A stretch of DNA of 64,000 nt from Bacteroidota bacterium. Lineage in GTDB: Bacteria; Bacteroidota; Ignavibacteria; Kryptoniales; JAKASW01. Under the pieces are notes generated by a model. That model was not told the origin of the DNA. It worked only from the letters and a program-made list of their open reading frames with translations, and did no database searches. How positions within the stretch are numbered: the stretch's first letter is position 1; the number at the start of each line of letters is the position of its first letter. The position numbers and the translations under genes are program-made. Where the stretch lies: assembly GCA_021811615.1 (NCBI GenBank), contig JAJZNW010000041.1:1-64000 (forward strand). The letters are read 5' to 3'. This document shows, piece by piece, positions 6,301 through 33,570 of the stretch.

Positions 6301-6461
6301 GGGGCTATCATACTCTCAAAATCCGGATGATCGATCCGGGAGTGGTGCTCGAGAAACTCGTCGTCTGCTTTCCAGGGGATTCTCTGGGCGGTGGGCTGAA
6401 GCCGAGCTACCTCGGGCCTCCGGAAAGTTTTCACACAGAAAGACACAGAGGCGGTCGATGA
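3396..6461 (+). CDS. GH115 xylan alpha-1,2-(4-O-methyl)glucuronidase
   Basis: This 1021-aa protein matches GH115, enzymes that remove glucuronate or 4-O-methylglucuronate from internal or terminal xylose units of xylan. Family-type stretches are the region around GTSHQEPMLRA, WREGVRRNRNYE, ITIGLRGADD and LLWAEDNWGNIRR (about residues 305-455). A C-terminal beta-sandwich of the family follows from about residue 760. ATG 3396 is preceded by GGAGGTG, but a signal peptide begins more naturally at the in-frame Met of MKIKYPRF (3444), which has its own AGAGGTG. There is no T9SS domain, so it is probably periplasmic. The last dozen residues (FHTERHRGGR) look like translation of a dispersed GACACAGAGGC-type repeat running into the stop. 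It is the main source of free methylglucuronate in the window. Confidence 0.92.
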   Translation: MSTTRHRRMIIKRCTEMKIKYPRFSLPVFRLLAILNLLLMSPYSLRAIGTRTYVTFEKPAGEFPLSVSGKPAPVCVSSKDFSGVRLILSRYFASDIEQVTGKAPEILVDKVPRAKDIVIIGTIGNSPLIDRLISTKKIDVKGIAREWEAYLIQTVHRPFPGVERALVVAGSDKRGTMYAMFDISEKIGVSPWHWWADVPVKHHEDLYVLPGRHTDGPPSVRYRGIFLNDEWPALTNWVMAKYGTAPVSQHPPVPPGVGNYRHEFYERIFEVLLRLKANYLWPAMWNNAFNEDDTSNARLADEYGIVMGTSHQEPMLRAQKEWDRRYLFTLGSWNYAKHPRVMENFWREGVRRNRNYESIITIGLRGADDTPMAPGGPEANMSLLQKIVGVQRAIIADEVDRDVTKVPQMWCLYKEVQDFYNAGMRVPDDVTLLWAEDNWGNIRRLPTPEERKRSGGAGIYYHFDYHGGPRSYQWINTDPIPKIWDQMSLAKQYGADRIWIVNVGHFKGYEFPLEYFMSLAWNSGRWTNHNLGEYTRLWAEREFGPEHAAEIAQIITRYTMYNGRRKPELLSPSTYSLVDYREAENVVVDYDSIAEKAEDIFHELPKDMRDAFYELVLFPTKASAIVNELYYSAGLNALYAKQGRVATNDMAAKTRELFSADTSLMGYFNRELAGGKWNHFMDQTHLGYTNWQDPPTNSLRAIDLKEVVVPDSASMGVAIEGSESAWPGASRSPVLPVFDAFNRQHYYIEVFNRGNTPFQYSVAASKPWIRASSSSGNIEKQTRLMIGIDWENVPRGNDSGFVRISGTNRDIVVGVKTFNPVEITRDSLDGFVEGNGVVSMEAEHFTRKVDAGTNRWIRIEDYGHTLSGMRAASVVDAPPAIPGKDSPSLGYRMYLFSTGEVAVVGTFGPTLNFIHGRPLRYAVSFDDEAPQTVMLVPADYNAQNGNRDWEMSVINNGRMSRTIHTISSRGYHTLKIRMIDPGVVLEKLVVCFPGDSLGGGLKPSYLGPPESFHTERHRGGR

Positions 6462-6564: not shown

Positions 6565-8175
6565 ATGACGATAAAATCGTTACATTTTCGTGAACGATAT
6601 CCGGCGCTGTTTGCGGGGCTGTTTGTTGCTTTGCTTCTTGTTCCGTCCGATTCATATTCGCAGTTGGCTCTGGGCAGGAGCAAATTCCTGGGGAACGCAG
6701 TCACCTTTGGTTACCGCATTCCTTCCAATTACCTGGCGTATTGGAACCAGGTTACCCCGGGAAATGACGGCAAGTGGGGAAGTGTCGAAAACAACCAGGG
6801 AATCTTCAACTGGTCGGGGCTCGATGCTCTTTACAACTTCGCCTTGACGAACGGCATTCCATTTAAGGACCACAACCTGATATGGGGTCAGCAGCAGCCA
6901 TCATGGATTTCTCAAATCGCCGATTCGGCTACCCAGAGAGCGGCAATAAAGGCATGGATTGACTCCGTCGGACATCGTTATCCCAAAATGGATTTTATCG
7001 ACGTCGTCAATGAGCCGCTGCACGCACCTCCGGATGGGAAGAACGGAAACGCAAACTACATTAGAGCTTTAGGCGGTTCGGGAGCGACAGGCTGGGATTG
7101 GATAGTCACTGCTTTTGCATGGGCAAGACAGGCTTGCGCGCCCGGCGTCAAATTGCTGATTAACGACTACAACATTCTTCAAGACAATGGCACAACGAAC
7201 ACCTACATCGCCATTATAGATACGTTGAAAGCAAGGGGGCTGATCGATGGGATCGGGATTCAGGGACACTACTTCGAGTTCAAGAGTGCTCAAGGTCTCA
7301 CGCCGGTTTATTCCTATTCTGTCGCCACTCTTAAATCGAATCTCGACAGGATTGCCTCCCAGACAGGATTGCCCATCTACATCTCCGAGTTCGACATAAA
7401 CGAACCGGATGACAGTGTCCAGCTCGCGAACTTTCAGACTTACTTTCGTCTGTTCTGGGAACACCCGGCAGTGAAGGGCATGACGCTATGGGGATATAAC
7501 CAGGGTGACATGTGGAAAGTCAACGCCTACCTGGTGCGCACCGACGGCTCGGAGCGTCCGGCGATGCAATGGCTGCGCAAGTATCTTGCTTATTACCTGT
7601 CGGGGCCCGTGGTCGCATCGCCTGTCGGTACGACCGGCGTGCCGCGGAATCCCCTTCTTACATGGCACCCGTCGATCGCGGCGTCGTCTTACCGTCTCCA
7701 GATCGCGACCGATGAAGTGTTCATGAATATCGTGGCTGATTCAACTGTTGCAGATACATCGTTGCGGGTGGGTCCGCTGTCGTCAAACACAAAATATTAC
7801 TGGCATGTTCGTGCCATGAACGCGAGCGACACAGGCGATTACTCGACGCTTGCGAGCATCACTACGAGTGACACCGTGGAAACCGGCATGAACGAAATTT
7901 ATGAGGGGCCGATGACGTTCAGGCTTTCTCAGAATTTTCCTAATCCATTCAACCCGACAACAGTCATCGGGTATCGGCTACCGGTAAATGGCTTCGTCAC
8001 TTTGAAGATTTATAATGTCCTTGGAAGGGAAGTGGCCACGCTTGTCGACGGGCGACAAACCGCGGGAAACCACTTCGTGACGTTCAATGCAACCAATTTG
8101 CCCAGCGGTGTGTATTTCTACTGTCTGCGGGCCGGAGCTTACAACAAAACCATGAAACTACTTCTCGTGAAATGA
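6565..8175 (+). CDS. GH10 endo-beta-1,4-xylanase with FN3-like and T9SS domains
   Basis: The 536-aa product has a signal peptide (about 1-33) and a GH10 catalytic domain (about 35-345). The acid/base Glu150 lies in DVVNEP and the nucleophile Glu275 in YISEFDI; GH10 substrate-site motifs WNQVTPGN, DHNLIWGQQ and GIGIQGHY are present. A fibronectin-III-like module (about 353-438) precedes a C-terminal T9SS type A domain (about 453-536, NFPNPFNPT ... VLGREVATL ... GVYFY). It should be exported to the cell surface to cut the xylan backbone. It lies 100 bp after the GH115 gene and 28 bp before a GH30 gene. A larger GH10 paralogue is at 11.6-14.0 kb. Confidence 0.95.
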   Translation: MTIKSLHFRERYPALFAGLFVALLLVPSDSYSQLALGRSKFLGNAVTFGYRIPSNYLAYWNQVTPGNDGKWGSVENNQGIFNWSGLDALYNFALTNGIPFKDHNLIWGQQQPSWISQIADSATQRAAIKAWIDSVGHRYPKMDFIDVVNEPLHAPPDGKNGNANYIRALGGSGATGWDWIVTAFAWARQACAPGVKLLINDYNILQDNGTTNTYIAIIDTLKARGLIDGIGIQGHYFEFKSAQGLTPVYSYSVATLKSNLDRIASQTGLPIYISEFDINEPDDSVQLANFQTYFRLFWEHPAVKGMTLWGYNQGDMWKVNAYLVRTDGSERPAMQWLRKYLAYYLSGPVVASPVGTTGVPRNPLLTWHPSIAASSYRLQIATDEVFMNIVADSTVADTSLRVGPLSSNTKYYWHVRAMNASDTGDYSTLASITTSDTVETGMNEIYEGPMTFRLSQNFPNPFNPTTVIGYRLPVNGFVTLKIYNVLGREVATLVDGRQTAGNHFVTFNATNLPSGVYFYCLRAGAYNKTMKLLLVK

Positions 8176-8203: not shown

Positions 8204-10105
8204 GTGAAAAAGCTTCCCGCGTACCTTTTGGTCCTTTTTACCATTGCAGCCGTTAGTCCGCTTTCGGGTCATGCCGGGACAAGTCTTGTCAAAGGGACTG
8301 TCTCCGCGTCCGGGATGCCCGTCCGCTATGCATTAGTTACCTTCTACGACAGCTATAATTTCTCGATTCAATACAGCGCCGTGACCGACTCAATGGGCTC
8401 TTATTCTCTTGACCCGATCACCGCGCTAAAACAAGAGATTCGGCTCCCTGAAAAGTTCAAGCTGGACCAGAACTATCCAAACCCGTTTTCATCGTCGACC
8501 GCCATCTCCTATGACCTTGACAAGCAGTCCGATGTCAAGGTATCGATTTATGATGTTCTCGGGAGAGAGGTAAAAACTTTCAACGTCGGTTACCAGTCCG
8601 CGGGGTCTCATGGCATAACTTGGAACGGCAGGAACCAGTTCGGGAAATTAGTCGCGCCGGGAGTCTATTTTTACAGGCTCCAGGCCGACGGTCAAGCCCG
8701 GAGCAGGAAAATGGTACTGGGGATGGGTCCAAGTGTAAGTTCAATAATGCTTCCCGGATCGTTCTCTTCGGAAGCGGCGATGACGCCTGACGCGATTCAT
8801 GGCGTTCCCATGAGGTCCCTCTCCGGCGCTGAGACATTCGTCGTGTCTATCTCGAACACGGACAGCACTTCGCCGGCGATCGTCCCGAAGCAAATCGGAA
8901 ACGTCATGATCCGGAGCGACACCACCCTCGACTTCACAGTGAATCTTCCGCAAGCTAAGGTATACCTCGACAGCACTTTCCAAACCATAAGAGGTTTCGG
9001 AGGCGCAAATGTCCTGATTTTCGGCCGGCCAGACATGACTCCCGCAGAGGTACAGACGGCTTTCGGGAGCGGCAACGGCCAGGTCGGAATGACTATCATG
9101 CGGATCTCGATCCCGCCGGACTCGACTCAGTTCAGCGCATACTCGCGCTCGGCTCTTGCTGCTCAGAATCTCGGAGCCACAATTATCGCGACACCATGGA
9201 CGCCCCCGGCGTGGATGAAAAGCAACAATAACCAGGTTGGAGGGATGCTTCTCCCGGCGAATTATCCGGCGTATGCTTCCTATCTGAAGTCATTCTCCGA
9301 TACCTTGACTGCTCATGGCGTGACGCTCAACGCGATCTCAGTACAGAATGAACCGGACTTCAACGCATCCTATCAATCCTGCTTCTGGAATGCGACCCAG
9401 TTTCTGAATTTTATGAAGAACAATGCGCCATTCATAGGCGTACCGGTGTTCATGCCGGAGTCTGAGAATTTCAGGCATCAACTGTCGGACTCGACTCTGA
9501 ACGATACTGCTGCTGCGTCACATGTCGCTTTCATCGGAGGACACATTTATGGCGTGGTGCCTTCAAGCTATCCTCTCGCGCTTCAGAAAGGCAAAGAGCT
9601 CTGGATGACCGAATACTTGATAAACAGCGGCGGCTCCACGGTAACCGATGTCGACACTGGCTGGACCGGCGCCGCGCAGACAGCAAAGAGTATCAACGAT
9701 TGTATGGCCAGCAACATGAGCGCCTACGTGTGGTGGTACATCGTGAGGTATTATAGTCCGCTTGATGAAAACGGCAACGTCACGAAGAAGGGCTACGTCA
9801 TGTCGCAGTTCGCGAGATTCGTGCGCCCGGGGTTCCAGCGGGTGGGTGCCACATTGAATCCGCTGCCGAACGTGTATGTGACCGCCTATAAGGAGGGACA
9901 AAGCGTCGTCATAGTCGCGCTGAATTTGAATTCCAATCCGGTGACCATGCCGTTCGTGCTGCAAGGTGGAACTGAGACTGCGTTCATCCCGTTCGTCACT
10001 TCGCCCACAAAAAACTGCGTTCAGGGGATGGGTGCCAGCGTGGCGAATGGAAGCTTCCTGTTCACCCTCGATCCGTCGAGCGTGACAACGTTCGTCTCAA
10101 ATTGA
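8204..10105 (+). CDS. GH30 glucuronoxylanase-like enzyme with internal FlgD/T9SS-like domain
   Basis: A 633-aa secreted protein (signal peptide about 1-24). Residues 25-72 look like a carboxypeptidase-regulatory-like beta-sandwich. Residues about 85-175 (LDQNYPNPFSSST ... VLGREVKTF ... GVYFYRLQA) match the fold normally found as a C-terminal T9SS sorting domain, but here it precedes the enzyme. The GH30 domain starts near 245. Its acid/base Glu383 is in VQNEPD and its nucleophile Glu470 in WMTEY. FARFVRPGF and a C-terminal SSVTTFVSN strand complete the beta-sandwich typical of GH30 subfamily 8, whose members cut xylan next to methylglucuronate branches. The segment WWYIVRYYSP has Val where XynC-type enzymes usually have an extra Arg, so uronate dependence is uncertain. 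It starts 28 bp after the GH10 gene. Confidence 0.87.
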   Translation: MKKLPAYLLVLFTIAAVSPLSGHAGTSLVKGTVSASGMPVRYALVTFYDSYNFSIQYSAVTDSMGSYSLDPITALKQEIRLPEKFKLDQNYPNPFSSSTAISYDLDKQSDVKVSIYDVLGREVKTFNVGYQSAGSHGITWNGRNQFGKLVAPGVYFYRLQADGQARSRKMVLGMGPSVSSIMLPGSFSSEAAMTPDAIHGVPMRSLSGAETFVVSISNTDSTSPAIVPKQIGNVMIRSDTTLDFTVNLPQAKVYLDSTFQTIRGFGGANVLIFGRPDMTPAEVQTAFGSGNGQVGMTIMRISIPPDSTQFSAYSRSALAAQNLGATIIATPWTPPAWMKSNNNQVGGMLLPANYPAYASYLKSFSDTLTAHGVTLNAISVQNEPDFNASYQSCFWNATQFLNFMKNNAPFIGVPVFMPESENFRHQLSDSTLNDTAAASHVAFIGGHIYGVVPSSYPLALQKGKELWMTEYLINSGGSTVTDVDTGWTGAAQTAKSINDCMASNMSAYVWWYIVRYYSPLDENGNVTKKGYVMSQFARFVRPGFQRVGATLNPLPNVYVTAYKEGQSVVIVALNLNSNPVTMPFVLQGGTETAFIPFVTSPTKNCVQGMGASVANGSFLFTLDPSSVTTFVSN

Positions 10106-10125: not shown

Positions 10126-11478
10126 GTGGCTGTGTACGATTCACATAACTGCAATTGCAGGCGGCTGTGGCTTGTGATTGCCTCTTTGTTGTTCCTGAGT
10201 GTCGAATGCATTTCGCAAACAGTGAACGACACTTATGAAATCGCTCCCTGGCAGGGATTCCGCTCGGCGGCGATAAGCTACACTTTCGACGACAACTGCC
10301 CTAACCAGCTCGGGATTGCTGTTCCGATGTTCGACCAGTTCGGGTACAAGCTTACGCTTTTTACCGTTACCAGCCCGACCTGGGGATGGAAGGCAGACTG
10401 GAGCGGACTGCAGAAGGCCGCTTCCGAAGGACATGAGATTGCCAGCCATACGGTTACGCATGCGAATTTCAGTACGCTCGCCGACTCGGCGCAGAAGACA
10501 GAGCTTGAGTCATCACAGGATACGATCAACGTGCACATTGCGGGACAGAGGTGCATTACCATCGCTTATCCGTACTGCGCCACCGGCAACAGCGCCATGG
10601 TGGCTAACTACTACTTAGCCGCGCGCGGCTGCTCGGGGCAGGTGGTAAGCAAGACGCCCGCGGACTTCATGAACATCAGCTCGTTTGTCTGCGGCAACCA
10701 GGGATTGAATACGTCGACCGCAATGGAGTCCAAGGCCGACGAAGCGGCATCTGTGAATGGATGGTGCGTATACCTGATGCACGGCATCAACGGCACGGAA
10801 CCCGGCGCGTACTCTCCAATTTCACAAGATACAATTCTTGCGACTCTCCAGTATATGAAGAACAACCCGCAAAAGTTCTGGGTGGCTCCGTTCGGCACTG
10901 TCACGAAATACATCAGGGAAAGAAATTCAGCCTCAGTCTCGGAAAGTTCCAGCAGCGCAGACAGCGTAGTGGTACAGGTAACGGACAAACTCGGCAGTGG
11001 TTATTTCGATGTGCCCCTAACGATTCGCCGTCCGCTTCCCGAAAAATGGGATTCCATCTTGGTACTTCAAAACGGTGGCACAATGTCCTCATGGATTTCC
11101 GGGACCGATACGGCAAGGTACGCGGTGTTCGAGGCGGTTCCGAACGGAGGAAATGTTACGATCGTCGGGAAGACGAGAGTCCAGGTCGGAGTGAGAAGTT
11201 TACCTAATGTCCCTTCGACGTTCGCACTCTATCAGAATTATCCGAATCCTTTCAATCCGACCACCCGTATCGGATTTCGAATTGCGGATGTCGGATTTGT
11301 CTCGCTGAAGGTTTACGACACGCTCGGCAGGGAGGTGGCAACGCTTGTAAACAGGAGAGAAAACCCGGGATACCATACCGTGTCCTTCAATGCCGCCGGT
11401 CTGTCGAGCGGCGTGTACTTCTACGCGATTCAGGCAGGGAGTTTCAACATCAGCAGGAGGATGGTTTTGATCAAGTGA
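10126..11478 (+). CDS. CE4-type polysaccharide deacetylase with T9SS sorting domain
   Basis: A NodB-fold deacetylase of 450 aa, probably acting on acetylated xylan given its neighbours, although chitin-type substrates are possible. Motif 1 is TFDDN (Asp55/Asp56) and motif 2 is SHTVTH (His108/His112), the metal-binding residues of the family. A beta-sandwich stretch (about 270-355) links to a C-terminal T9SS type A domain from about 368 (NYPNPFNPTT ... TLGREVATL ... GVYFYAIQ). A signal peptide spans about 8-28. The start is GTG: either 10126 or 10132, the latter better spaced from the GAGG at 10123-10126. It lies 20 bp after the GH30 gene, in the same transcription direction. Confidence 0.85.
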   Translation: MAVYDSHNCNCRRLWLVIASLLFLSVECISQTVNDTYEIAPWQGFRSAAISYTFDDNCPNQLGIAVPMFDQFGYKLTLFTVTSPTWGWKADWSGLQKAASEGHEIASHTVTHANFSTLADSAQKTELESSQDTINVHIAGQRCITIAYPYCATGNSAMVANYYLAARGCSGQVVSKTPADFMNISSFVCGNQGLNTSTAMESKADEAASVNGWCVYLMHGINGTEPGAYSPISQDTILATLQYMKNNPQKFWVAPFGTVTKYIRERNSASVSESSSSADSVVVQVTDKLGSGYFDVPLTIRRPLPEKWDSILVLQNGGTMSSWISGTDTARYAVFEAVPNGGNVTIVGKTRVQVGVRSLPNVPSTFALYQNYPNPFNPTTRIGFRIADVGFVSLKVYDTLGREVATLVNRRENPGYHTVSFNAAGLSSGVYFYAIQAGSFNISRRMVLIK

Positions 11479-11598
11479 CCACAATTCTGACCGCCGGTGC
11501 CGCCTGTTGGATCTTTGGAGATTGTACCGGACAGTCATCGCGCTCCACACGGGGTCGCATTCATGGCGGTCGTTCTTAAAAAACACAGGAGGCAAAAA

Positions 11599-13995
11599 AT
11601 GTTCAGGTTGACAAAGCAGTATTTGGGTGCCATGGTTGTTCTGACGGTCATGGCACTTCTGACGAGTGCGTCATCGATCAGGGCGCAGTCTGTGATGAAC
11701 GGAGGCTTCGAAAGCTCCAACACCGGGATTGTAGACACCACTGAAATCAAAGGATGGTTGATCCTGGTTGCGTCCGGCATAACTCCACCGCCTGTTTACG
11801 AGATAGTGAGCGACACGGTCGAGTCCGGCAGTCGTGCTATCAAGGTTACGCTGCACGGCCTGGGAAGCAATCAATGGGACATCCAGCTGGTTTCGGACAG
11901 CATTAAGGTTACGCCCGGGACAACCTACAATTTCTCAATCTGGGCGAAATCACAGAAAGCGGGCGCGACTGTAAATTTCACGGTTGGAAACTATTCTTAT
12001 TCCGAATATAAGGCGATACGTCCGGCTACTCTCGGAACTCAATGGCAGCAGTTTACAATGCAGTTCACGGTGAATGACACCAACAGGGTGATCAGGGCAC
12101 CTATCCATTTCTATTCGGCGGCAGATACAGGAAACTCCATTTACATAGACAATCTCAGGATAGTCGATGCCAGTGCAGGTAAGAAGCCTGTAATTGTGCA
12201 GGCGGAATCCGGCGTTCTCGGAACCAACTATGCGGTTCTCCAGGACGGCTCCACTACTTACATTTCTCCGAATGCCACTTATACCGGTCTTGCCAGCCCA
12301 GGCGATACCAGTCGGATGGCGACTTATCAGATCACGTTTCCCGATTCGGGGTACTATGATCTGTTTGCACGGCTGCGTGTCGGTTCCGGCACTTTCGATG
12401 ATGACAGCTACTTCTTCGGAAACGGATTCGGCGTGAAGAATGATACCGCTGGTGCAGACTGGGTCTTCATAAACGGCCTTGCAAGTGCAGGATTCTCGGA
12501 TTCCTCAGCATTAGTAAGGGATCCTGGAACGCTCGGTTCCGGAACGTGGAAATGGGTGAATGTCACGAGGAACAGTTATCAGGGTGAATCTTCCGATAGT
12601 TTCTATGTCGATCCCGACAGTCTCACGAGGACATTCCAGATCGGCAGCCGCGAAGATGGGTTGGATATCGACAAATTTGCTTTCGGGAAATCCTATCTTT
12701 ACTTCACCGTGAGAAACCTCGACAGCGTGCAGGCAGGATCGGCGACCCCGCCTTCCGTCGATACCGGCACGGTCTGGAACGGACCGGCACTTGCCGCAGG
12801 CAAAGCGAAGTTCCTCGGGAGTGCTTACCTTCCGAACCAGGAAGCCAATTTCCTGAATTACTGGAATCAGGTCACGCCGGAAAATGCCGGCAAATTCGGT
12901 TCGGTAGGTGTCTCCGCCGATTCGTCTCAATGGAATTGGACCGGCCTCGACGCGTCATATAATTTCGCGATCGACAACAAACTCCCGTTTAAAGAGCACT
13001 GCCTGGTCTGGGGAAATCAGCAGCCCGCGTGGATCACAGGCTCGGGACTCGATTCGGCGCAGCAACGCGCAGCTATCGAACAGTGGATCAGGATGGTGGG
13101 CCAGCGTTACCCGAAGATCGACATGGTGGATGTGGTGAATGAGCCGCTCCCCGGACACGCACCGGCTCCATATGCTCCGGCCCTCGGAGGTGCAGGTGCG
13201 ACAGGATGGGACTGGGTTATCTGGGCCTTCCAGAAGGCAAGAGAGTATATGCCGAATGCAAAACTTATTTTGAACGATTACAACATCCTTAACAGCAACA
13301 CCAACACGACCGCACTCCTGCAGATTGTCAACCTGCTCAAAGATCGCAACCTTATAGACGGCATTGGAATTCAGGGACATCGCTTCGAGCTCGAAAGCGC
13401 CGATACTGCCATGATCAGAAGCAATCTGGACAGACTGTGGGCAACAGGGATCCCGATATACATTTCCGAGTTCGACCTTGGGAACCCCGGCAACTCCGGG
13501 ACTCCGGACGATAATCAACAATTGAATCTTTATAAGAAGGTCTTTCCGATGTTGTGGCAGCATCGCGGGGTAAAAGGGATTACGGTGTGGGGGTACAAGG
13601 AGGGTCTCGTCTGGCAGACATCCACTTACCTGGAGAGGTCCGATGGAAGCGTGAGGCCCGCTTTGCTTTGGATGGCCGACTATATCAAGAACAACCCGCT
13701 GGGTGTTCAGCAGGTTGCCGCGAATCTGCCGACAGCTTTTCAGCTCGATCAGAATTATCCCAATCCGTTCAATCCGACCACGACCATCAGGTATCAGCTT
13801 CCGAAGGTCAGCCGTGTGGTATTGAAAGTCTACGACGTCATCGGAAGAGAAGTCGCGACTCTGGTGAACGAAAAGCAGAACCCCGGCTACCATGAGGCGA
13901 CGTTCAACGCAAGCAAGCTCTCGAGCGGAGTCTATTTCTACAGGATTACTGCCGGGACATTCAACGCATCTAAGAAACTCGTCCTTGTTAAATAG
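11599..13995 (+). CDS. Multidomain GH10 xylanase (CBM4/9-like, second CBM, GH10, T9SS)
   Basis: A 798-aa modular xylanase. The order is: signal peptide (about 1-30), a CBM4/9-like sandwich beginning VMNGGFES (about 33-190), a second carbohydrate-binding-like module starting VIVQAESG (about 196-375), GH10 domain (about 395-705) and T9SS type A domain (about 713-798). The GH10 acid/base is Glu515 (VVNEPL) and the nucleophile Glu624 (YISEFDL). ATG 11599 is chosen because AGGAGG lies 7 nt upstream and a signal peptide follows; a frame extension to 11497 has no ribosome site. It is closely related to the GH10 at 6.6 kb (shared WNQVTP, KEHCLVWG/KDHNLIWG, GIGIQGH), suggesting duplication with gain of binding modules. 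Confidence 0.93.
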   Translation: MFRLTKQYLGAMVVLTVMALLTSASSIRAQSVMNGGFESSNTGIVDTTEIKGWLILVASGITPPPVYEIVSDTVESGSRAIKVTLHGLGSNQWDIQLVSDSIKVTPGTTYNFSIWAKSQKAGATVNFTVGNYSYSEYKAIRPATLGTQWQQFTMQFTVNDTNRVIRAPIHFYSAADTGNSIYIDNLRIVDASAGKKPVIVQAESGVLGTNYAVLQDGSTTYISPNATYTGLASPGDTSRMATYQITFPDSGYYDLFARLRVGSGTFDDDSYFFGNGFGVKNDTAGADWVFINGLASAGFSDSSALVRDPGTLGSGTWKWVNVTRNSYQGESSDSFYVDPDSLTRTFQIGSREDGLDIDKFAFGKSYLYFTVRNLDSVQAGSATPPSVDTGTVWNGPALAAGKAKFLGSAYLPNQEANFLNYWNQVTPENAGKFGSVGVSADSSQWNWTGLDASYNFAIDNKLPFKEHCLVWGNQQPAWITGSGLDSAQQRAAIEQWIRMVGQRYPKIDMVDVVNEPLPGHAPAPYAPALGGAGATGWDWVIWAFQKAREYMPNAKLILNDYNILNSNTNTTALLQIVNLLKDRNLIDGIGIQGHRFELESADTAMIRSNLDRLWATGIPIYISEFDLGNPGNSGTPDDNQQLNLYKKVFPMLWQHRGVKGITVWGYKEGLVWQTSTYLERSDGSVRPALLWMADYIKNNPLGVQQVAANLPTAFQLDQNYPNPFNPTTTIRYQLPKVSRVVLKVYDVIGREVATLVNEKQNPGYHEATFNASKLSSGVYFYRITAGTFNASKKLVLVK

Positions 13996-14082: not shown

Positions 14083-14169
14083 CTCCCGATATTGCCTTTT
14101 CGTCCGAATGATTAGAATGGAGCTAGTGAGCGCTTCCAGTGAGTCAATCGTCGATAAGGAGTGTGTCAT

Positions 14170-15414
14170 ATGAAAAGGGGCTTTCAATTCACCTGGCGAT
14201 TTCTGCGTGTCATCGGATCGGTCTCCATACTTCTGATAGCGGGTTGTACAAAGAAAGGGTCGGTTACCGGACCGCCGACGGGAACAGGTTCTGCTGCGGT
14301 TTACCTGGACAGTACGCAGCAGATTATCAGGGGATTCGGTGCGGCCAATATCGTCGGCTGGCGGCCCGACATGACTCCAGCTCAAATTCAGACAGCCTTC
14401 GGCACCGGACCAGGACAGCTGGGGTTCACGATCATGCGACTGCGTATCCCGCCAGATTCTATGGAGTTTGCCGTCAATGTTCCCTCCGCAAAATCGGCTT
14501 ACTCGATGGGGGTTACAATCATAGCGACTCCATGGACACCTCCGGCGTGGATGAAGAGCAATGGGAGCCTTATAGGCGGCACGCTCAACACAAATGAGTA
14601 TGCGGCTTATGCCGCTCACCTGAAGTCATTTGCAGACACCATGTCCGCAAATGGGGCTCCGATCTATGCGGTATCAGTTCAAAACGAACCCGATGCCAAC
14701 GTCGGCTATGAATCGTGCTTCTGGAATGCAGCGCAGTTTCTCACTTTCATGAAGAACAACGCTGCCTCCGTCGGAGTCCCTGTCTTCATGCCGGAATCGA
14801 TGAACTTTAACCATTCCCTGTCCGATGCGGCGCTGAGCGACGCGGGAGCCGCTGCAAATATCGCTTTTGTCGGCGGGCACCTTTACGGCACTAGTCCTTC
14901 GAAGTATCCGCTTGCCGCCGCCGTGGGGAAGGAAGTCTGGATGACGGAGTATCTTGACCTCGACACGACATGGGCAGCGAACCTTGAAACTGCCAGGAGC
15001 ATCAATGACTGCATGCTATCTCAAATGAGCGCATATGTTTGGTGGTACATTGTACGCTACTATGGCCCTATCGGCGAGAACGACGCCGTCACGAAGAGAG
15101 GATATGTCATGTCCCAGTATGCAAGGTTCGTCAGGCCGGGATTCTATCGTGTCTCTGCCACGGCGAATCCTCAGGCGAATGTCTTTCTGACAGCGTACAA
15201 GAATGGCCCGAAGGTAGTTATCGTCGCGTTGAACACCGGCGCATCGCCGGTCGACCAGAAATTTTACATACCGAATTCAACAATCGTTTCATTTGAAACT
15301 TACGCGACCTCGGCCGGCAAAAACTGTTTACAGGGAAGCGGCGTCACGGTTTCCGGCGGAACCTTCACGGCGACGCTGGATCCGTCGAGCGTGACGACGC
15401 TCGTGTCGAACTAG
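14170..15414 (+). CDS. GH30 glucuronoxylanase-like lipoprotein
   Basis: A 414-aa GH30 protein with a lipoprotein signal (SILLIAGC, Cys about 26), so it is likely anchored in a membrane rather than exported by T9SS. The acid/base Glu173 is in VQNEPD and the nucleophile Glu260 in WMTEY. The remaining catalytic core (WTPPAWMKSN, YVWWYIVRYYGP, RFVRPGF, C-terminal SSVTTLVSN) parallels the GH30 gene at 8.2 kb, minus its N-terminal modules. The start is ATG 14170 with AAGGAG at 14156-14161; a GTG at 14161 overlaps that site and is less likely. The pair of GH30 enzymes, one with a FlgD-like domain and one a lipoprotein, implies action at two cell compartments on the same xylan. Confidence 0.88.
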   Translation: MKRGFQFTWRFLRVIGSVSILLIAGCTKKGSVTGPPTGTGSAAVYLDSTQQIIRGFGAANIVGWRPDMTPAQIQTAFGTGPGQLGFTIMRLRIPPDSMEFAVNVPSAKSAYSMGVTIIATPWTPPAWMKSNGSLIGGTLNTNEYAAYAAHLKSFADTMSANGAPIYAVSVQNEPDANVGYESCFWNAAQFLTFMKNNAASVGVPVFMPESMNFNHSLSDAALSDAGAAANIAFVGGHLYGTSPSKYPLAAAVGKEVWMTEYLDLDTTWAANLETARSINDCMLSQMSAYVWWYIVRYYGPIGENDAVTKRGYVMSQYARFVRPGFYRVSATANPQANVFLTAYKNGPKVVIVALNTGASPVDQKFYIPNSTIVSFETYATSAGKNCLQGSGVTVSGGTFTATLDPSSVTTLVSN

Positions 15415-17566: not shown

Positions 17567-18235
17567 ATGGAAAATCTTGTTGCAAGAATCGGCGAGTGCG
17601 TTGAACGAGGAAAGGTCAATAAATCATCTCCTTATCCTAACGATATGCAAGGCCAGGAAGGGACGGATGAGCTGACGCGCCAGGCTCTCGATGCGGGCGT
17701 CGGGCCTGACGAGATCCTTCAGGCGTGTAACGACGGGATGAAGCGGATCGGCGACAGGTTTAGCAGGAACGAGGTATTTGTGCCGGAGCTCCTCATGTCC
17801 GCAAAGGCGATGAATGCAGTCATGGCTCACCTCAAACCGTATTTCCAAACCGGTACCGTCAAAGCAAAGGGTAGGTTTGTAATCGGCACGGTTGCAGGAG
17901 ATCTTCACGACATCGGGAAAAATCTGGTTGCGATGGTTGTTGAGGGAAACGGCTGGGAGGTGGTAGACCTTGGAGTTGACGTCAAACCGGTCAGGTTCGT
18001 CGATGCGGTGAAACAGAACCCGGGCTGCACAGTCGGATTAAGTGCGCTTCTCACAACGACGATGGTCAACATGTCAAAGACGGTCAGCGAGATAAAGGCT
18101 CAATTCCCTGGCACCAAGGTAATCGTCGGAGGCGCTCCTCTGAGTCAGAAGGCAGCCGATAAAATGGGCGCAGACGGCTATGCTCCGAACCCGCAGGGCG
18201 TGGTCGCGTTCCTGGATGGCGGGGTGCAGAAGTGA
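17567..18235 (+). CDS. Corrinoid (cobalamin-binding) methyltransferase protein
   Basis: A 222-aa corrinoid protein of the MtaC/MtmC/MetH-B12 type that carries a methyl group on cobalt between two methyltransferases. An N-terminal helical bundle cap (about 30-100, with TRQALDAGVGPDEIL and VFVPELLMSAKAMN) precedes the Rossmann B12 domain. The cobalt-ligating His114 is in DLHDIGKNL, with GLSALLTTTM and VIVGGAPLS downstream. It is cytoplasmic. The stop overlaps the GTG start of the homocysteine methyltransferase gene by 4 bp, so the two should be translationally coupled. Together with the next genes it forms a stand-alone methyl-transfer module; the methyl donor is not given by the sequence. The 3' neighbours argue for a UroD-family donor methyltransferase. 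Confidence 0.92.
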   Translation: MENLVARIGECVERGKVNKSSPYPNDMQGQEGTDELTRQALDAGVGPDEILQACNDGMKRIGDRFSRNEVFVPELLMSAKAMNAVMAHLKPYFQTGTVKAKGRFVIGTVAGDLHDIGKNLVAMVVEGNGWEVVDLGVDVKPVRFVDAVKQNPGCTVGLSALLTTTMVNMSKTVSEIKAQFPGTKVIVGGAPLSQKAADKMGADGYAPNPQGVVAFLDGGVQK

Positions 18236-19116
18236 ATTCTCTTCTCGGGGCGCTCAAGAGCGGCAAGGTGCTGGTGTCCGACGGGGCGTGGGGAACTATG
18301 CTTCAGGAACGCGGACTCCAGCCTGGCGAATGCCCGGAACTCTGGAACGTCACTCATCGAAGCGATGTCTTCAAAGTGGCGAAGGGCTATGCCGACGCCG
18401 GGGCCGACATGATTCTTACAAACAGTTTCGGCGGCTCGCCAATCAAGCTTGCCCATTATGATCTTGAGGGACGCGCCGCGGAGCTCAATGAGGCAGCTGC
18501 CGCGATTTCCAGAGAGGCGGCGGGCAGTTCACGCTTCGTACTGGGTTCGATCGGTCCGACCGGCGAGATGCTCATGATGGGACAGGTGAGGGAAGAAGCC
18601 GTCTACGATGGTTTCCGGGTGCAGGCAGCCGCTCTCAAAAATGGCGGAGTGGATGCAATTATCGTCGAGACGATGTCCGCCATAGATGAGGCTGCGATTG
18701 CCATACGCGCCGCGAAGGATGCGACGGGGCTTGAAGTCATCTGCACGTTCACATTCGACAGGACTGTCACCGGAGAATATCGTACCATGATGGGCGTTAG
18801 TCCCGCTGAGATGGTGAAGGCCGTGAAGGATGCCGGTGCTTCCATCATCGGCGCCAACTGCGGCAACGGCTTCGACCAGATGATAGACGTCGTAAGAGTA
18901 ATCAGAAAGGCGGATCCTTCGACGCCGCTGCTCGTGCATGCAAACGCCGGCCTGCCCGTCGTCGAAGACGGGAAGCTAATCTACACTGAGACCCCCGAGA
19001 TGGTTGCCGTGAAGGCGCGCAGGCTCGCGGAGTCTGGCGCCAATATCATCGGCGGATGCTGCGGAACCACACCCGAGCATATTCGTGCGCTTGTGAAGGA
19101 GCTGAAAACAGCGTGA
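18232..19116 (+). CDS. Homocysteine S-methyltransferase (MetH Hcy-domain, stand-alone)
   Basis: A 294-aa TIM-barrel protein equivalent to the homocysteine-binding domain of cobalamin-dependent methionine synthase. The zinc ligands are Cys210 (GANCGNG) and Cys276/Cys277 (GGCCGTTPEHI), matching Cys207/272/273 of the Thermotoga enzyme in spacing. The N-terminal DGAWGTMLQ motif is also typical. The pterin-binding domain that would accept methyl-tetrahydrofolate is absent here and is not encoded nearby, so the methyl group probably reaches the corrinoid protein from another donor. The GTG start overlaps the preceding stop, and its own stop overlaps the next start. Likely reaction: methyl-Co(III)-corrinoid plus homocysteine gives methionine. 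Confidence 0.9.
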   Translation: MNSLLGALKSGKVLVSDGAWGTMLQERGLQPGECPELWNVTHRSDVFKVAKGYADAGADMILTNSFGGSPIKLAHYDLEGRAAELNEAAAAISREAAGSSRFVLGSIGPTGEMLMMGQVREEAVYDGFRVQAAALKNGGVDAIIVETMSAIDEAAIAIRAAKDATGLEVICTFTFDRTVTGEYRTMMGVSPAEMVKAVKDAGASIIGANCGNGFDQMIDVVRVIRKADPSTPLLVHANAGLPVVEDGKLIYTETPEMVAVKARRLAESGANIIGGCCGTTPEHIRALVKELKTA

Positions 19117-19856
19117 CGCTTCATGAGACCGAAATAGAGAAGGATGTTTTCGAAGTCGCGATCGAATTCGGCGATCTTCCCCTCGACAGGACCGAAATTG
19201 AACTTACACTCGGCTATTCCGAAGGCGACATACCGGTCCACTTCTCGGGGATGATCGATGAGGCTGTGGAGCAGCTCCCGAAGCGATGTAACATAAGGGC
19301 CGGGTATAGGATCCTCGATGCTCATAGACCCGACGGACGCGTGGACGGACTTGTAGTCGGCGGCACGTTCTTCAAACTGGACAAGATCGTTACCGGTCAG
19401 ATCAAGAAGTCGGCCCGCGCGGCGCTGTTTGTGGCGACGATCGGTCCGTCGATGGAGGAATGGTCCAGGAAACTCCTGAAGGGGGATGAACCGGCGCTGG
19501 GTTACATCGCAGATGTCGCCGCATCCGCCGCTGCGGAGACGGTGACCAACCTTCTCCACGACCACGTCGGAGAGAAGATGCGGTCACAGGGGCTCAATAT
19601 TACGAACAGGTACAGCCCGGGCTATTGCAACTGGTCCGTTTCGGAACAGCACCTCCTGTTTTCTCTTCTTCCTAAGAATTTCTGCGGTGTCACACTTTCC
19701 GAATCCGCACTGATGCACCCGATGAAGTCGGTAAGCGGCATCATCGGTATCGGCGCCGACGTGAAGTGGAAAGACTACATCTGTGACCGTTGCGGTGTGA
19801 AGGACTGCACATACCGCGCAACCCGACGAAAAGAATCACTGAATTCTAAACCCTAA
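19113..19856 (+). CDS. MetH-activation-domain-like protein (corrinoid reactivation)
   Basis: A 247-aa protein related to the vitamin B12-dependent methionine synthase activation domain, which supports reductive remethylation of inactive Co(II) corrinoid. Key stretches are NRYSPGYCNWSVSEQ and GVTLSESALMHPMKSVSGI; a C-terminal CDRCGVKDCTYR cysteine cluster may hold a metal. The start is GTG 19113, overlapping the upstream stop in a GTGA; longer readings lie inside the previous gene. The last codons (LNSKP) fall inside an inverted repeat at 19842-19970. As a free-standing protein it would act in trans on the corrinoid protein two genes upstream. Confidence 0.87.
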   Translation: MTLHETEIEKDVFEVAIEFGDLPLDRTEIELTLGYSEGDIPVHFSGMIDEAVEQLPKRCNIRAGYRILDAHRPDGRVDGLVVGGTFFKLDKIVTGQIKKSARAALFVATIGPSMEEWSRKLLKGDEPALGYIADVAASAAAETVTNLLHDHVGEKMRSQGLNITNRYSPGYCNWSVSEQHLLFSLLPKNFCGVTLSESALMHPMKSVSGIIGIGADVKWKDYICDRCGVKDCTYRATRRKESLNSKP

Positions 19857-20045: not shown

Positions 20046-21074
20046 ATGACAGACCAGCAGTGGGAATTACTGAAAAAAACGATCAGGGGCGAAGTGACCG
20101 ATCCTCTGCCGATAGGATTCATAATCGACAGCCCGTGGCTGCCGAACTGGTACGGCGTAAAGATACTCGACTATTTTTCCAACGACGAGATTTGGCTTAA
20201 TGCGAATCTGAAGGCTATCAATGATTTCCCGGAGGTGATGTTCCTGCCGGGCTTCTGGTCCGAGTTCGGTATGTGCACCGAGCCGTCGGCATTCGGTGCG
20301 CGAGGGACGTTTCCGCCGGACGAGTTCCCGTTCGCACATAAGGTCATTCGTTCTGTTGACGACATCGATGACCTTCCACAGCCTGACCCGAGGATCGATG
20401 GACTCCTCCCTTTCATGCTCAACAGGCTGAAGCTCGCGCAGCCTAAGATCGAAGCCGCCGGACACAAGATTCGTTTCGCTGTAGCGCGAGGCCCTCTCAA
20501 CATCGCCAGCTATCTTATGGGTTCCACCGAATTTCTCACGACTATGATGATGCAGCCGGATAAGGCGGAAGCCCTGATGAAAAAGATTACCGCATATGTA
20601 AAAGACTGGCTCCACCTCCAGATGGAAACGTTTCCTTCCATCGACGGCATCTTTTTATTAGATGACATAATCGGCTTCATGGGCGAGAATGAATTTCGGA
20701 CTTTCGGGCTCCCGTATTTCAAAGAGCTGTTCGACGCTGACGTTTCGGTGAAATTTCTCCACAATGATGCACCCTGCAAAGTGTCGGCGCCTTTCCTTCC
20801 CGAGATGGGGGTGAATCTGTTCAACATGGGCTTTGAAGTCACGCTGAATGAGTTGAAGGCGTTGACAAAGGGACAGGTCACGCTGGTCGGCAACATTCCT
20901 CCTCGCGACGTTCTCGGTAACGGAACTCCGGAAGATGTTGCTAAAGCGACGCGCTCTCTTTTGAATTCTCTCGAAGCAAAATCGAGGGTGATAATGTCGT
21001 GCGGTGGAGGGATGCCTCCGGGCGTCAAGAGCGAGAACATCAGAGCGTTTGTCGATGCCGTGCACGGCAGGTAA
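20046..21074 (+). CDS. UroD/MtaA-family corrinoid methyltransferase (HND...C variant)
   Basis: A 342-aa uroporphyrinogen-decarboxylase-fold protein of the methyltransferase branch rather than HemE. Near the C-terminal face are His239 in FLHNDAP and Cys319 in MSCGGGMPPG. This is the HxD...C arrangement seen in O-demethylase-type members, in place of the HxC...C of MtaA. It lies 189 bp after the corrinoid and homocysteine module and in the same direction. I infer that it transfers a methyl group from an O-methylated compound to the corrinoid protein. With a methylglucuronoxylan locus next door, 4-O-methylglucuronate is an attractive candidate donor, but the substrate is not visible in the sequence. 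Confidence 0.85.
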   Translation: MTDQQWELLKKTIRGEVTDPLPIGFIIDSPWLPNWYGVKILDYFSNDEIWLNANLKAINDFPEVMFLPGFWSEFGMCTEPSAFGARGTFPPDEFPFAHKVIRSVDDIDDLPQPDPRIDGLLPFMLNRLKLAQPKIEAAGHKIRFAVARGPLNIASYLMGSTEFLTTMMMQPDKAEALMKKITAYVKDWLHLQMETFPSIDGIFLLDDIIGFMGENEFRTFGLPYFKELFDADVSVKFLHNDAPCKVSAPFLPEMGVNLFNMGFEVTLNELKALTKGQVTLVGNIPPRDVLGNGTPEDVAKATRSLLNSLEAKSRVIMSCGGGMPPGVKSENIRAFVDAVHGR

Positions 21075-24856: not shown

Positions 24857-25924
24857 ATGACGGCGGCACTCACCGAACAGGAACGCAGCAGGACAGCTGC
24901 AACCGGCAGGAAGCCGTTCTCTGAAATGGTCCATAAGGCATTCTATGAAGGACGGAGACTGGTTGTTCCGTTGATGGGATTTCCGGGATTGAATCTTACC
25001 GGTTGCTCCGTAAAACTTGCCCAGCAGAACTACGGCGAGCATTTCAAGGTGTTGAAAGCGATTGCAGAAAGATATCGACCTGATGTCGTTTTCCCGATGA
25101 TGGACCTTTCTGTCGAAGCGAATGCGATAGGGAGATATACCGTCTTTCCGAAAGAAGAATCTGCCACTGTGGTTCGTGACGAGTTTCGGCTTGAAGATCT
25201 CGAAGCGGCGGAACGTGTCAATATTTCATTCGACGCGCGCTTGCTGGGTTATGTGGAAACCATGAAGCTGATGAGCATCGGGTTTCCTTCCAACATACTC
25301 AGAGGCGCGTACGTTACAGGTCCTTATACGCTCGCGGCACTTCTGATGGGGGCGGAAGAAGCCGCGGCATCCACTGTTGCCGATGCCGAAATGCTCCATG
25401 AGGTTTGCAGCTTCGCGACGTCAAAGATCCAGCAGTATCTAAGACTCTTGATTGCCGCAGGTGCGCAGATCATTTGTGTCCTGGAGCCGAGCGCGGTAAT
25501 GCTCGGTCCGGAACAGTTCGATGAGTTTTCCGGTATGTACGTGAGTCACTTATGTGAAAGTTGCTCGGAGACTGAGGTTTCGACGGTGTATCATGTCTGC
25601 GGCAACTCGATGCACCTCATAAAGTCGATGGCCCGCGCGGGAGTGGACGCTCTCAGCCTCGATTCGCCGGAGGCGGGAGTAGATCTCAGGCTTGTTGCCG
25701 AAAGGATTCCCGAAGACGTTATTCTGATCGGTAACCTGAATCCCACGGGCCCGATACTCTACGGAACACCAGCCGGGGTGGAGAATGACGTCCGCGACCT
25801 TCTTGAGAACATGATGGATTATCCTAATTTCGTGCTTAGCACTGGATGCGATCTTCCGCAGGAGACGCCGGATGAAAACATAATGGCCTTCATGAAGGCG
25901 GGTCGCAATTACAGATTCAAGTGA
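24857..25924 (+). CDS. MtaA-like UroD-family methyltransferase with HxC...C zinc motif
   Basis: A 355-aa methylcobamide-type methyltransferase. His246-x-Cys248 (YHVCGNS) and Cys331 (STGCDLP) reproduce the zinc site HxC...C of MtaA, with a similar separation. Zinc activates a thiol in known relatives, so this protein could be a second-half methyltransferase or a zinc-dependent donor-side enzyme. It differs from the 20.0-kb member, which has His-Asn-Asp. The ATG at 24857 has no good ribosome site; internal starts such as the Met of SEMVHKAF are possible. It is first in the operon with the ExuT-like transporter and sugar-acid enzymes, tying methyl transfer to sugar-acid catabolism. Its gene is preceded by a repressor-controlled promoter. 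Confidence 0.85.
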   Translation: MTAALTEQERSRTAATGRKPFSEMVHKAFYEGRRLVVPLMGFPGLNLTGCSVKLAQQNYGEHFKVLKAIAERYRPDVVFPMMDLSVEANAIGRYTVFPKEESATVVRDEFRLEDLEAAERVNISFDARLLGYVETMKLMSIGFPSNILRGAYVTGPYTLAALLMGAEEAAASTVADAEMLHEVCSFATSKIQQYLRLLIAAGAQIICVLEPSAVMLGPEQFDEFSGMYVSHLCESCSETEVSTVYHVCGNSMHLIKSMARAGVDALSLDSPEAGVDLRLVAERIPEDVILIGNLNPTGPILYGTPAGVENDVRDLLENMMDYPNFVLSTGCDLPQETPDENIMAFMKAGRNYRFK

Positions 25925-25961: not shown

Positions 25962-27263
25962 ATGGAAGACAGAATCCCTGAATTCGATGGAAGCACCCCG
26001 GGGCTCGCGGCAGATGCCAGGTCGGGTTATTACCGGTGGGTCGTCTGCGGTCTGCTGTTCCTCGCGACGACAATTAACTACATAGACAGGGCGGTACTCG
26101 GCATACTCGCGCCGGTACTTCAGAAGAGCATCGGCTGGAACCAGATAGATTACGGTTACATCATCGCCGCATTCACGGGTGCGTACGCGATCGGTCTCCT
26201 TTTCGTCGGGAGGTTCATAGATTGGATCGGCACAAAGAAGGGATACTCTGCCTCGATGGTCGTGTGGAGCGTTTCCGCGATGGCGCATGCCCTTGCGGGG
26301 AGCGCGTTCGGCTTCGGTGCAGCGAGGTTCGCACTTGGGCTCGGAGAATCGGGAAACTTCCCGGCTGCGATCAAGGCGACAGCCGAATGGTTCCCGAAGA
26401 AAGAAAGGGCGCTGGCTACCGGACTGTTCAACTCGGGTCCCAACGTCGGTACCATCGTCGCCCTTGTTTTAGTTCCCTGGATAACGCTGACGTGGAGCTG
26501 GCGTGAAGCGTTCATCTTCACGGGACTGCTCGGGTTCATCGCACTCGCCCTCTGGCTGTGGCTCTATGAAATTCCTGAGAAGCAGAAAAGAGTCAGCAAG
26601 GCCGAGGTGGCATACATACAGAGCGATCCACCGGAGCCGCCCGCAGAGAAAGTCCCGTGGTTGAAGCTTCTCAAGTACAGGCAATCATGGGCGTTCGTCA
26701 TCGGGAAGTTTCTTACCGACCCGATCTGGTGGTTCTATCTCTACTGGCTTCCGAGTTTTCTCAATCAAAGATACCACCTCGATCTTGCCCATCTTGGTCT
26801 TCCACTCATAGTGATATACACGATGGTGACCGTAGGCAGCGTCGGCGGCGGCTGGATGTCGGGAGCGTTCATTAAGAGAGGCTGGAGCATCAACAAGGGA
26901 AGAAAAGCGACCATGCTGCTCAGCGCAGTCTTGATCGTGCCGATAGTATTCGCAGCTTCCGTTCCGGAATGGTGGGCCGTGGTGCTTATCGGACTCGCCG
27001 CAGCCTCGCACCAGAGCTGGTCGGCAAACCTGTTCACCACAGCTTCCGATATGTTTCCCAAGAAAGCCGTCGGCTCCATCGTCGGCCTCGGCGGGATGGC
27101 CGGAGCAATCGGCGGCGTGCTGATCGCGGGTGTGGCGGGATTTGTCCTCCAATTCACCGGGAGCTACATTCCCCTTTTCATCATAGCAGGCAGCGTCTAC
27201 CTGTTGGCACTATTGATTATCCACTTGCTCGTTCCTGAAATCAAAGAGTTCAAAATGGTCTGA
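25962..27263 (+). CDS. MFS hexuronate/sugar-acid transporter (ACS family, ExuT-like)
   Basis: A 433-aa, 12-segment major facilitator of the anion:cation symporter branch. Diagnostic stretches are TINYIDRAVLGILAP in the first segment, the loop RFIDWIGTKKGY and LGLGESGNFPAAIKATAEWFP with KERALATGLFNSG, as in ExuT and related hexuronate or sugar-acid carriers. It resides in the inner membrane. The ribosome site AGAGGAG lies just before the ATG. Placed 37 bp after a methyltransferase and before the dehydratase gene, it is the likely importer for the operon's acid substrate; glucuronate or methylglucuronate is an inference from context. Confidence 0.88.
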   Translation: MEDRIPEFDGSTPGLAADARSGYYRWVVCGLLFLATTINYIDRAVLGILAPVLQKSIGWNQIDYGYIIAAFTGAYAIGLLFVGRFIDWIGTKKGYSASMVVWSVSAMAHALAGSAFGFGAARFALGLGESGNFPAAIKATAEWFPKKERALATGLFNSGPNVGTIVALVLVPWITLTWSWREAFIFTGLLGFIALALWLWLYEIPEKQKRVSKAEVAYIQSDPPEPPAEKVPWLKLLKYRQSWAFVIGKFLTDPIWWFYLYWLPSFLNQRYHLDLAHLGLPLIVIYTMVTVGSVGGGWMSGAFIKRGWSINKGRKATMLLSAVLIVPIVFAASVPEWWAVVLIGLAAASHQSWSANLFTTASDMFPKKAVGSIVGLGGMAGAIGGVLIAGVAGFVLQFTGSYIPLFIIAGSVYLLALLIIHLLVPEIKEFKMV

Positions 27264-27344
27264 AGCACATAGCCGTTTCTTTCTTAAGATGAGATGGAAA
27301 GGAGGCACATTTCCCTTTCCATCTCGAGAGGAGCAGAAGAACAA

Positions 27345-29962: not shown

Positions 29963-29963
29963 A

Positions 29964-32332: not shown

Positions 32333-33544
32333 CTATGAACCCTTCGAGCTGGTCTGGCTTTCCAGCGATCTTCTGATTCCCAGTTCCAGTCCCCTCAGCT
32401 CGGCAAGTCCTCTCATCCTTCCGAAGAGAGAATAGCCCGGGTAAATTCCTTTCCTGTGCATGTCCGGTATCATAAGATGTCCGTGGTCGGGACGCATCGG
32501 CATCCTCGCGCTCTTAAGGCCGAGGGATGTGCGCCGGTTTTGTTCGATGACGAGCGGCTTCATCACGCCGTACATGTCGATGTCGCCGCCGAGCTGGTAG
32601 TCCTCGACGAATCCACCTTTGCCGTCTTTCGTCACATTGCGAAGATGTATGAAGTTTATCCGTTTCGCGAATGATTCCGACATGTCGACGACATCGTTGT
32701 TCGGATCGGCGGCGAGAGAACCGGGGCAGAACGTTAGCCCGTTCGACTGCGAATCCGCCGCCGCAAGGATCTGCTCGAAATCCTTTTTCTTACTCACGAC
32801 TCTGGGGAGTCCGAAGAGCGGGAAGGGCGGGTCGTCCGGATGAATCCCGAGGAGGACTCCCGCTTCTTCGGCCGCGGGAGTTATGTCGCGGATGAAATCG
32901 TGTAAATGCTCACGAAGCTCCTTGTCGCCGATCCCCTTATAATTTCCGAGCTCATCTTTGAAAGCGTCAAGGGTGTATGCCTCAAGCGAGCCCGGAAGTC
33001 CGAGAAGGATTGTCCTCAGCAGCTTGTCTTTCTCTTTGTCAGACATCCCTCTGAAATAGAGCTCCGCGTCAGCGAGCTCGGCGTCGCTGTAATCGCTCGC
33101 CGCACCGGGCCTCTTCAGCATGAACATGTCGAAAGCAACTACAACTTTCCTCTCGAACCTGGTCGTTATCGATCCGTCGCCGAATACAACTTCGAGATCG
33201 GTGCGGAGCCAGTCGAAGACGGGCATGAAATTGTAGCAGACTATATCCACGCCGCATTTGGCGAGGTTCCTGATTGTGGCGATATAATTGTCTACATATT
33301 TCCTGTAATTCCCGCTACGCTTCTTGATATCCTCGTGGACCGGCACACTTTCCGTGACCGACCACGTCAGGCCGTCAGCCTCGATGAGGCCCTTCCGCCT
33401 CATTATCTCGTCGACCGGCCACACCTCGCCGATCGGAATCTGGTGCAGCGCAGTCACGATACCGGTAGCCCCGGTCTGTTTTATTTCTTTGAGGGAGAAT
33501 GGGTCCTGCGGACCGAACCATCTCCAGGTCTGTTCAAAACTCAT
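32333..33544 (-). CDS. uxuA: Mannonate dehydratase
   Basis: A 403-aa TIM-barrel metalloenzyme converting D-mannonate to 2-keto-3-deoxygluconate in glucuronate catabolism. Typical stretches are RWFGPQDPFSL, TALHQIPIGEVW, VCYNFMPVFDWLRTDL, HPDDPPFPLFGLPRVVS, FCPGSL and HLRNV, with metal-binding Cys and His. The start is taken as ATG 33544 (MSFEQTWRW) with GAGG about 12 nt upstream; a TTG at 33562 would add six residues. It is the only dedicated glucuronate-pathway enzyme seen in the window; uronate isomerase and fructuronate reductase are not here. It supports the idea that the organism eats the uronate side chains released by GH115. Confidence 0.93.
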   Translation of the reverse strand: MSFEQTWRWFGPQDPFSLKEIKQTGATGIVTALHQIPIGEVWPVDEIMRRKGLIEADGLTWSVTESVPVHEDIKKRSGNYRKYVDNYIATIRNLAKCGVDIVCYNFMPVFDWLRTDLEVVFGDGSITTRFERKVVVAFDMFMLKRPGAASDYSDAELADAELYFRGMSDKEKDKLLRTILLGLPGSLEAYTLDAFKDELGNYKGIGDKELREHLHDFIRDITPAAEEAGVLLGIHPDDPPFPLFGLPRVVSKKKDFEQILAAADSQSNGLTFCPGSLAADPNNDVVDMSESFAKRINFIHLRNVTKDGKGGFVEDYQLGGDIDMYGVMKPLVIEQNRRTSLGLKSARMPMRPDHGHLMIPDMHRKGIYPGYSLFGRMRGLAELRGLELGIRRSLESQTSSKGS

Positions 33545-33570
33545 ATATGCTTTGATCCTCAAGCTTGAAA

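Follow-up and report, generated by a model that had tools for sequence, protein, structure and literature searches.

A folate-free corrinoid module beside a UroD-family protein in a glucuronoxylan locus: a proposed system for the demethylation of 4-O-methylglucuronate

Three consecutive genes of a Bacteroidota genome encode proteins which correspond to the corrinoid, homocysteine (Hcy) and activation domains of methionine synthase MetH, but unlike MetH they are separate proteins without a pterin-binding domain, the activation protein carries an extra cysteine motif, and a UroD-superfamily protein (UROD1) replaces the donor side. The question raised by this locus is from which compound such a module takes a methyl group without folate and to which compound the methyl group is given. 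The reading preferred here, with a probability of roughly 0.6, is that the three proteins (COR, HCY and ACT) and UROD1 belong to a glucuronoxylan locus and together make up a folate-free corrinoid demethylation system of three components, acting on 4-O-methylglucuronate or an early catabolite of it. The window mentioned below is the whole stretch of DNA analysed, 64 kb in length.

The module, its UroD neighbours and the surrounding locus

COR (17567..18235, + strand) is an MtgC/MtbC-like corrinoid protein, that is, a methyl carrier with a base-off His114, and matches Pfam B12-binding (1.4e-24) and B12-binding_2; its best NCBIfam model is MtgC_2, with a score below the model cut-off, and it scores higher to MtgC/MtbC than to MetH. 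HCY (18232..19116, +), the proposed methyl acceptor side, is a homocysteine S-methyltransferase subunit (Pfam S-methyl_trans, 1.3e-71) and is 36% identical to the Hcy domain of the MetH of the same genome. ACT (19113..19856, +) is a stand-alone activation protein (Pfam Met_synt_B12, 6.8e-09) with an RxSPGY motif and a C-terminal CxxCxxxxC, and its nearest solved structure is Thermotoga 1j6r. The COR/HCY and HCY/ACT junctions alike are GTGA overlaps, and because of the overlap with HCY the start of ACT is taken to be the GTG at 19113, not the upstream ATG at 19056. The sequence-only reading had described three coupled genes with such overlaps, no pterin-binding domain, and intact zinc cysteines and corrinoid histidine, and all of this was borne out: Pfam supports all three genes, a Pfam scan of COR, HCY and ACT gave no Pterin_bind domain, and the COR motif D112-x-H114-x-x-G117 and the HCY zinc cysteines C210, C276 and C277 are conserved, as seen in one alignment of 17 sequences for each protein. 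The scores against the full-length metH model TIGR02082 (118.7, 174.0 and 20.6 bits) do not reach its cut-off of 1010.85, and no RNA family was matched in the window.

The same reading had taken ACT for the activation domain of MetH, which holds as far as the Met_synt_B12 match and the RxSPGY motif go, but ACT is not a plain activation domain, since it carries the added cysteines C191 and C224-x2-C227-x4-C232, which are kept in 40-41 of 41 homologues. No motif of this type lies at the C-terminus of the activation domain of the genome's own MetH. The motif suggests, by inference from the residues alone, that reductive activation may rely on an Fe-S or zinc site and on an electron supply which differs from that of the flavodoxin-dependent MetH.

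UROD1 (20046..21074, +; Pfam URO-D, 2e-38) is a UroD-superfamily methyltransferase, proposed here to be a 4-O-methylglucuronate:corrinoid methyltransferase. Residues D28, W31, W35, E79, R148, E162, D206, D207 and H239-N240-D241 are invariant in 53 homologues, and the AlphaFold model (pLDDT 90.6) resembles HemE and MtaA (TM 0.80 to MtaA 4ay7). The single UroD gene noticed earlier near the module turned out to be two paralogues: UROD2 (24857..25924, +), an MtaA-like methyltransferase of uncertain role, is closest to MtaA and is present in only a subset of UROD1 loci. The HxC...C zinc motif (H246, C248 and C331) is kept in UROD2 and absent from UROD1; its lack fits UROD1 as a donor-side enzyme, and UROD2 may methylate a thiol or serve as a second donor enzyme. 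The only other UroD-family protein found in this 84%-complete genome is one HemE on contig C149 (417.8 bits), and the candidate that UROD1 or UROD2 is the HemE of the cell was rejected on this ground.

The genes observed around the module are those of glucuronoxylan and uronate utilisation. Upstream lie, in this order and all on the + strand as far as positions are given, a CE15 glucuronoyl esterase (197..1765; Pfam GCE_fung, 1.8e-71), a GH8 enzyme (1934..3220), a GH115 xylan α-glucuronidase as the source of free (4-O-methyl)glucuronate (3396..6461; Pfam Glyco_hydro_115, 2.6e-149), a GH10 xylanase (6565..8175), a GH30-like enzyme (8204..10105), a CE4 polysaccharide deacetylase (10126..11478), a GH10 xylanase with CBM4_9 (11497..13995), a second GH30-like enzyme (14161..15414) (all assigned by Pfam) and a β-helix protein. 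Downstream are UROD1, an orphan of 134 aa, GH9, UROD2, an MFS transporter of the galactonate/hexuronate type (25962..27263, +; TIGR00893, 250 bits, below the cut-off) as candidate importer, an IlvD/arabinonate-type dehydratase, a FAH-family protein and an ALDH, with the mannonate dehydratase UxuA of uronate catabolism on the opposite strand (32333..33562, -; Pfam UxuA, 6.2e-119). The characteristic O-methyl group of glucuronoxylan is the 4-O-methyl on its glucuronate side chains, and 4-O-methylglucuronate, which hardwood xylan regularly carries as a side chain, is among the commonest methylated sugars on land. From the locus context alone, 4-O-methylglucuronate and unmethylated glucuronate are indistinguishable as the sugar handled.

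Some further features of the locus and genome may be recorded. The 134-aa ORF (21308-21712), which has no family match, lies between UROD1 and GH9 and is conserved at the same place in the closest relative (L040, 6412-6777). The first GH30-like ORF (8204-10105) has its T9SS-type sorting domain (Por_Secre_tail/FlgD_ig) at residues 91-171, close to the N-terminus and not at the C-terminus. The dehydratase, the FAH-family protein and the dehydrogenase, which is of the ketoglutarate-semialdehyde type (together 27294-31550), look like an oxidative aldonate pathway adjoining the module, and two more GH115 genes stand in tandem on contig C47 (14452-18720).

Distribution of the unit and its association with α-glucuronidases

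A profile scan of 84,980 species genomes gave 505 relatives of UROD1, the best 80 of which were examined. The identity is 61-90% across about ten phyla, and the record labels among these best 80 include Ignavibacteriota, Bacteroidota, KSB1, Calditrichota, Fibrobacterota, Spirochaetota, Verrucomicrobiota, Lentisphaerae, Neomarinimicrobiota, WOR-3, Ratteibacteria and Aminicenantes. The four-gene unit in the order COR-HCY-ACT-UROD1 is observed in 23 of these 80 loci (22 of the 57 which have more than 4 kb upstream), including loci from Spirochaetota, Fibrobacterota, Verrucomicrobiota, Lentisphaerae and Calditrichota; in roughly half of the wider set of loci, UROD1 stands without an adjoining COR-HCY-ACT. 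In addition, a search with ACT in 294 genomes of the class found the unit adjoining GH115, GH8, GH10, GH30, UxuA and MFS genes in many divergent genomes. The deep branches of the UROD1 tree are mostly weak, and the transfer history is not resolved by it.

The same 294 genomes, of which 29 have UROD1, 33 GH115 and 29 GH67, were used for co-occurrence. A GH115 or GH67 α-glucuronidase is present in 27 of the 29 genomes with UROD1 and in 9 of the 265 without it (Fisher 3e-28); the genomes are related, so these p-values overstate independence, and the genus-level count is the fairer one (14/14 with UROD1 versus 7/138 without, p=5e-15). UROD1 and an α-glucuronidase lie within 7 kb of each other in 16 of the 29 genomes, and in 20 they share a contig and are no more than 36 kb apart. 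Moreover, a wider set of 59 UROD1 loci with 9 kb or more of flanking sequence, which overlaps the class sample, has GH115 or GH67 near UROD1 in 29 cases, whereas none of 21 control loci with homologues of ACT or the module but no UROD1 has an α-glucuronidase nearby. A chance neighbourhood was rejected on the co-occurrence counts and these controls. Because GH115 and GH67 are different families with the same activity, UROD1 is linked to the sugar itself rather than to a single neighbourhood inherited once.

Among the 30 UROD1 loci without an α-glucuronidase nearby, 18 belong to genomes which have one elsewhere, and Pfam scans of the flanks gave no alternative substrate. The remaining 12 of the 59 are without one in the genome, and these are MAGs and so possibly incomplete, or else possibly scavengers of free sugar. 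These 12 include several spirochaetes with small genomes, one of which (L148) has a TRAP transporter near the module; it is inferred that spirochaetes of this kind may scavenge the free sugar.

These associations also bear on the explanation that the module demethylates an aryl methyl ether derived from lignin or ferulate and released along with xylan. Aromatic O-demethylases of the UroD superfamily are well known (PMC13222342), CE15 cuts lignin-xylan esters, and a Pfam Esterase gene occurs in 7 loci, but the association observed is with two α-glucuronidase families and uronate catabolism and not with aromatic genes, and the UROD1 profile matches HemE and misses the O-demethylase and dehalogenase family member CdmB at E<=0.001 (no tree with characterised clade members was made), so that an aromatic donor is regarded as quite improbable.

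The proposed reaction and the methyl acceptor

In the preferred reading, demethylation of the sugar, GH115 (elsewhere GH67) would free 4-O-methylglucuronate, which would be imported, here by the MFS transporter. In the cytoplasm, UROD1 is inferred to move the O-methyl group of the sugar, or of an early isomerisation or reduction product, to cob(I)alamin on COR, HCY would pass it from COR to zinc-bound homocysteine to give methionine, and ACT, with SAM and probably its Fe-S or zinc site, would re-reduce COR when it becomes oxidised. The demethylated uronate could then enter the UxuA route. The substrate, the transfer to Co(I) and the order of these reactions are all inferred. C4 of glucuronate becomes C3 of mannonate, the hydroxyl of which is eliminated by UxuA, and because a methyl group at that hydroxyl should block the UxuA step, the methyl must go first. 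The fuller statement, that a corrinoid demethylase present in about ten phyla cleaves the alkyl methyl ether of 4-O-methylglucuronate, transfers the methyl to homocysteine without folate and supplies a missing step of glucuronoxylan use, is held with only slightly better than even confidence. The cleavage of a dialkyl ether is the main chemical worry: the known UroD-family O-demethylases cleave aryl methyl ethers, and the leaving group of a sugar methyl ether is far poorer, so that its cleavage would call for unusual help from an acid or a metal. The main physiological worry is excess methyl; since the methyl supply per mole of xylan should exceed the need for methionine, a further methyl sink is required, and any fate of surplus methionine is likewise an inference.

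As to the acceptor, the genome was searched, as the sequence-only reading had proposed, for a complete metH and for a stand-alone pterin-binding methyltransferase. The former exists, in split form, on contig C68 (43241-46776; L002, L003) as an Hcy+pterin ORF of 615 aa and a B12+activation ORF of 577 aa; the latter was not found, the sole other pterin-binding gene of the genome being FolP-like. The split is genuine rather than the product of a frameshift, because other genomes of the genus show open frames of ~611-637 aa for the pterin half, and it apparently extends throughout the genus. With a complete MetH encoded elsewhere, the module is an additional system, and the candidate that it is the only methionine synthase of the cell was rejected. 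A pterin gene in the same regulon, which would have refuted the earlier reading, was not found; only FolP and MetH were, on other contigs, with regulon membership undetermined.

In most of the 29 UROD1 genomes, too, the pterin-binding proteins are limited to FolP-like ones and MetH. A few genomes of one family (f4) show an additional, weak match to a stand-alone pterin-binding gene, and MtrH above the cut-off occurs in none of the 29. A hidden folate:corrinoid methyltransferase was rejected for these reasons. The lack of a dedicated folate:corrinoid enzyme is thus observed in most carriers, and HCY is the encoded acceptor side, although homocysteine as the true acceptor remains inferred. The earlier suggestions of a donor other than methyl-tetrahydrofolate (methyl-THF) and of the neighbouring UroD protein as donor-side partner fit these data and the conservation of the unit across phyla; both rest on context and conservation only, without biochemistry.

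The existence of a separate pterin half of MetH in this genus also permits a spare methionine synthase, in which COR, HCY and ACT, all of them MetH-like, use methyl-THF from the MetH pterin domain and UROD1 is unrelated. Such a spare enzyme is very improbable, since a complete MetH is already encoded while the module has its own Hcy protein, COR resembles MtgC/MtbC better than MetH, the setting is a xylan locus, and the order with UROD1 is kept across phyla. Another explanation keeps the demethylation of 4-O-methylglucuronate but makes the main acceptor either another thiol, methylated by way of UROD2, or THF, methylated by way of the pterin domain of the split MetH, with HCY as a side branch. 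UROD2 keeps the zinc motif of the thiol-methylating MtaA, the stand-alone Hcy-pterin protein could dock COR, surplus methyl needs an outlet, and one corrinoid protein in Ruegeria serves both betaine demethylation and methionine synthesis through a pterin protein (PMC12478193); against these points, HCY is near UROD1 in 27 of the 59 loci and UROD2 in only 9, and the extra pterin gene is missing in most carriers. A main acceptor other than homocysteine is accordingly considered unlikely, if still a possibility to be kept in mind.

Relationships to known systems, significance and related modules

Like MtgC/MtgD/MtgE of Ruegeria and Phaeobacter (PMC12478193), which tie methionine synthesis to corrinoid-using glycine betaine demethylation, the module has separate corrinoid and Hcy subunits; that system, however, cannot do without the pterin protein MtgD and has a donor enzyme of the MttB family, whereas here there are no pterin subunit, a UroD donor enzyme, an own ACT and a complete MetH elsewhere. 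No MtgD-like gene was found in the locus, and genome-wide the pterin proteins were only FolP and MetH. Like the O-demethylases and dehalogenases MtvB, OdmB, VdmB, MtoB and CdmB (PMC13222342), it combines a UroD-fold donor, a small corrinoid protein and an acceptor enzyme, but those systems transfer methyl from aryl ethers or haloalkanes to THF (or archaeal counterparts) and use ATP-dependent activating enzymes, in contrast to the Hcy acceptor, the MetH-type activase with a cysteine motif and the proposed sugar alkyl ether here; the UroD-fold donor beside a corrinoid protein is present, and HCY stands instead of the absent folate/CoM acceptor methyltransferase. Type 1 mlp gene clusters (PMC10418091), proposed for methyl-sulfur chemistry, are also folate-free corrinoid clusters with several UroD proteins, but they encode Ram and Mlp2/Mlp3, in place of which HCY and ACT in a xylan locus are found; two UroD proteins and a corrinoid protein are present here, and Ram was not found among the scanned locus genes. 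The module works like each of these systems but fails a defining feature of each (the pterin acceptor, Ram or both).

A literature search, by which subscription papers were mostly not covered, found no description of 4-O-methylglucuronate demethylation by such a system. Published pathway accounts handle 4-O-methylglucuronate as glucuronate after cleavage by α-glucuronidase, and in one comparative analysis the product of GH67 action on MeGlcA-xylotriose is given plainly as D-glucuronic acid (PMC4194401). If the preferred reading is true, a dedicated demethylase fills a missing step in the use of 4-O-methylglucuronate, the breakdown of hemicellulose in anoxic soils and sediments is tied to the supply of B12 and methionine, and the chemistry of cob(I)alamin is extended to sugar alkyl ethers. 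The cultured, xylan-degrading isolate Melioribacter roseus P3M-2 carries the cluster, which makes the idea directly testable.

Furthermore, COR-HCY-ACT stands beside other UroD paralogues, without UROD1, in four loci (L048, 9785-13344; L051, 9793-13319; L061; L064), which makes the UroD subunit look like the interchangeable part that sets the donor. The modules of these four loci are probably folate-free demethylation systems for other methyl donors. In another locus (L050, 9969-15016) an HCY-ACT pair lies beside a cytosine/purine-type permease and an amidohydrolase, neighbours hinting at a methylated nucleobase-like substrate.
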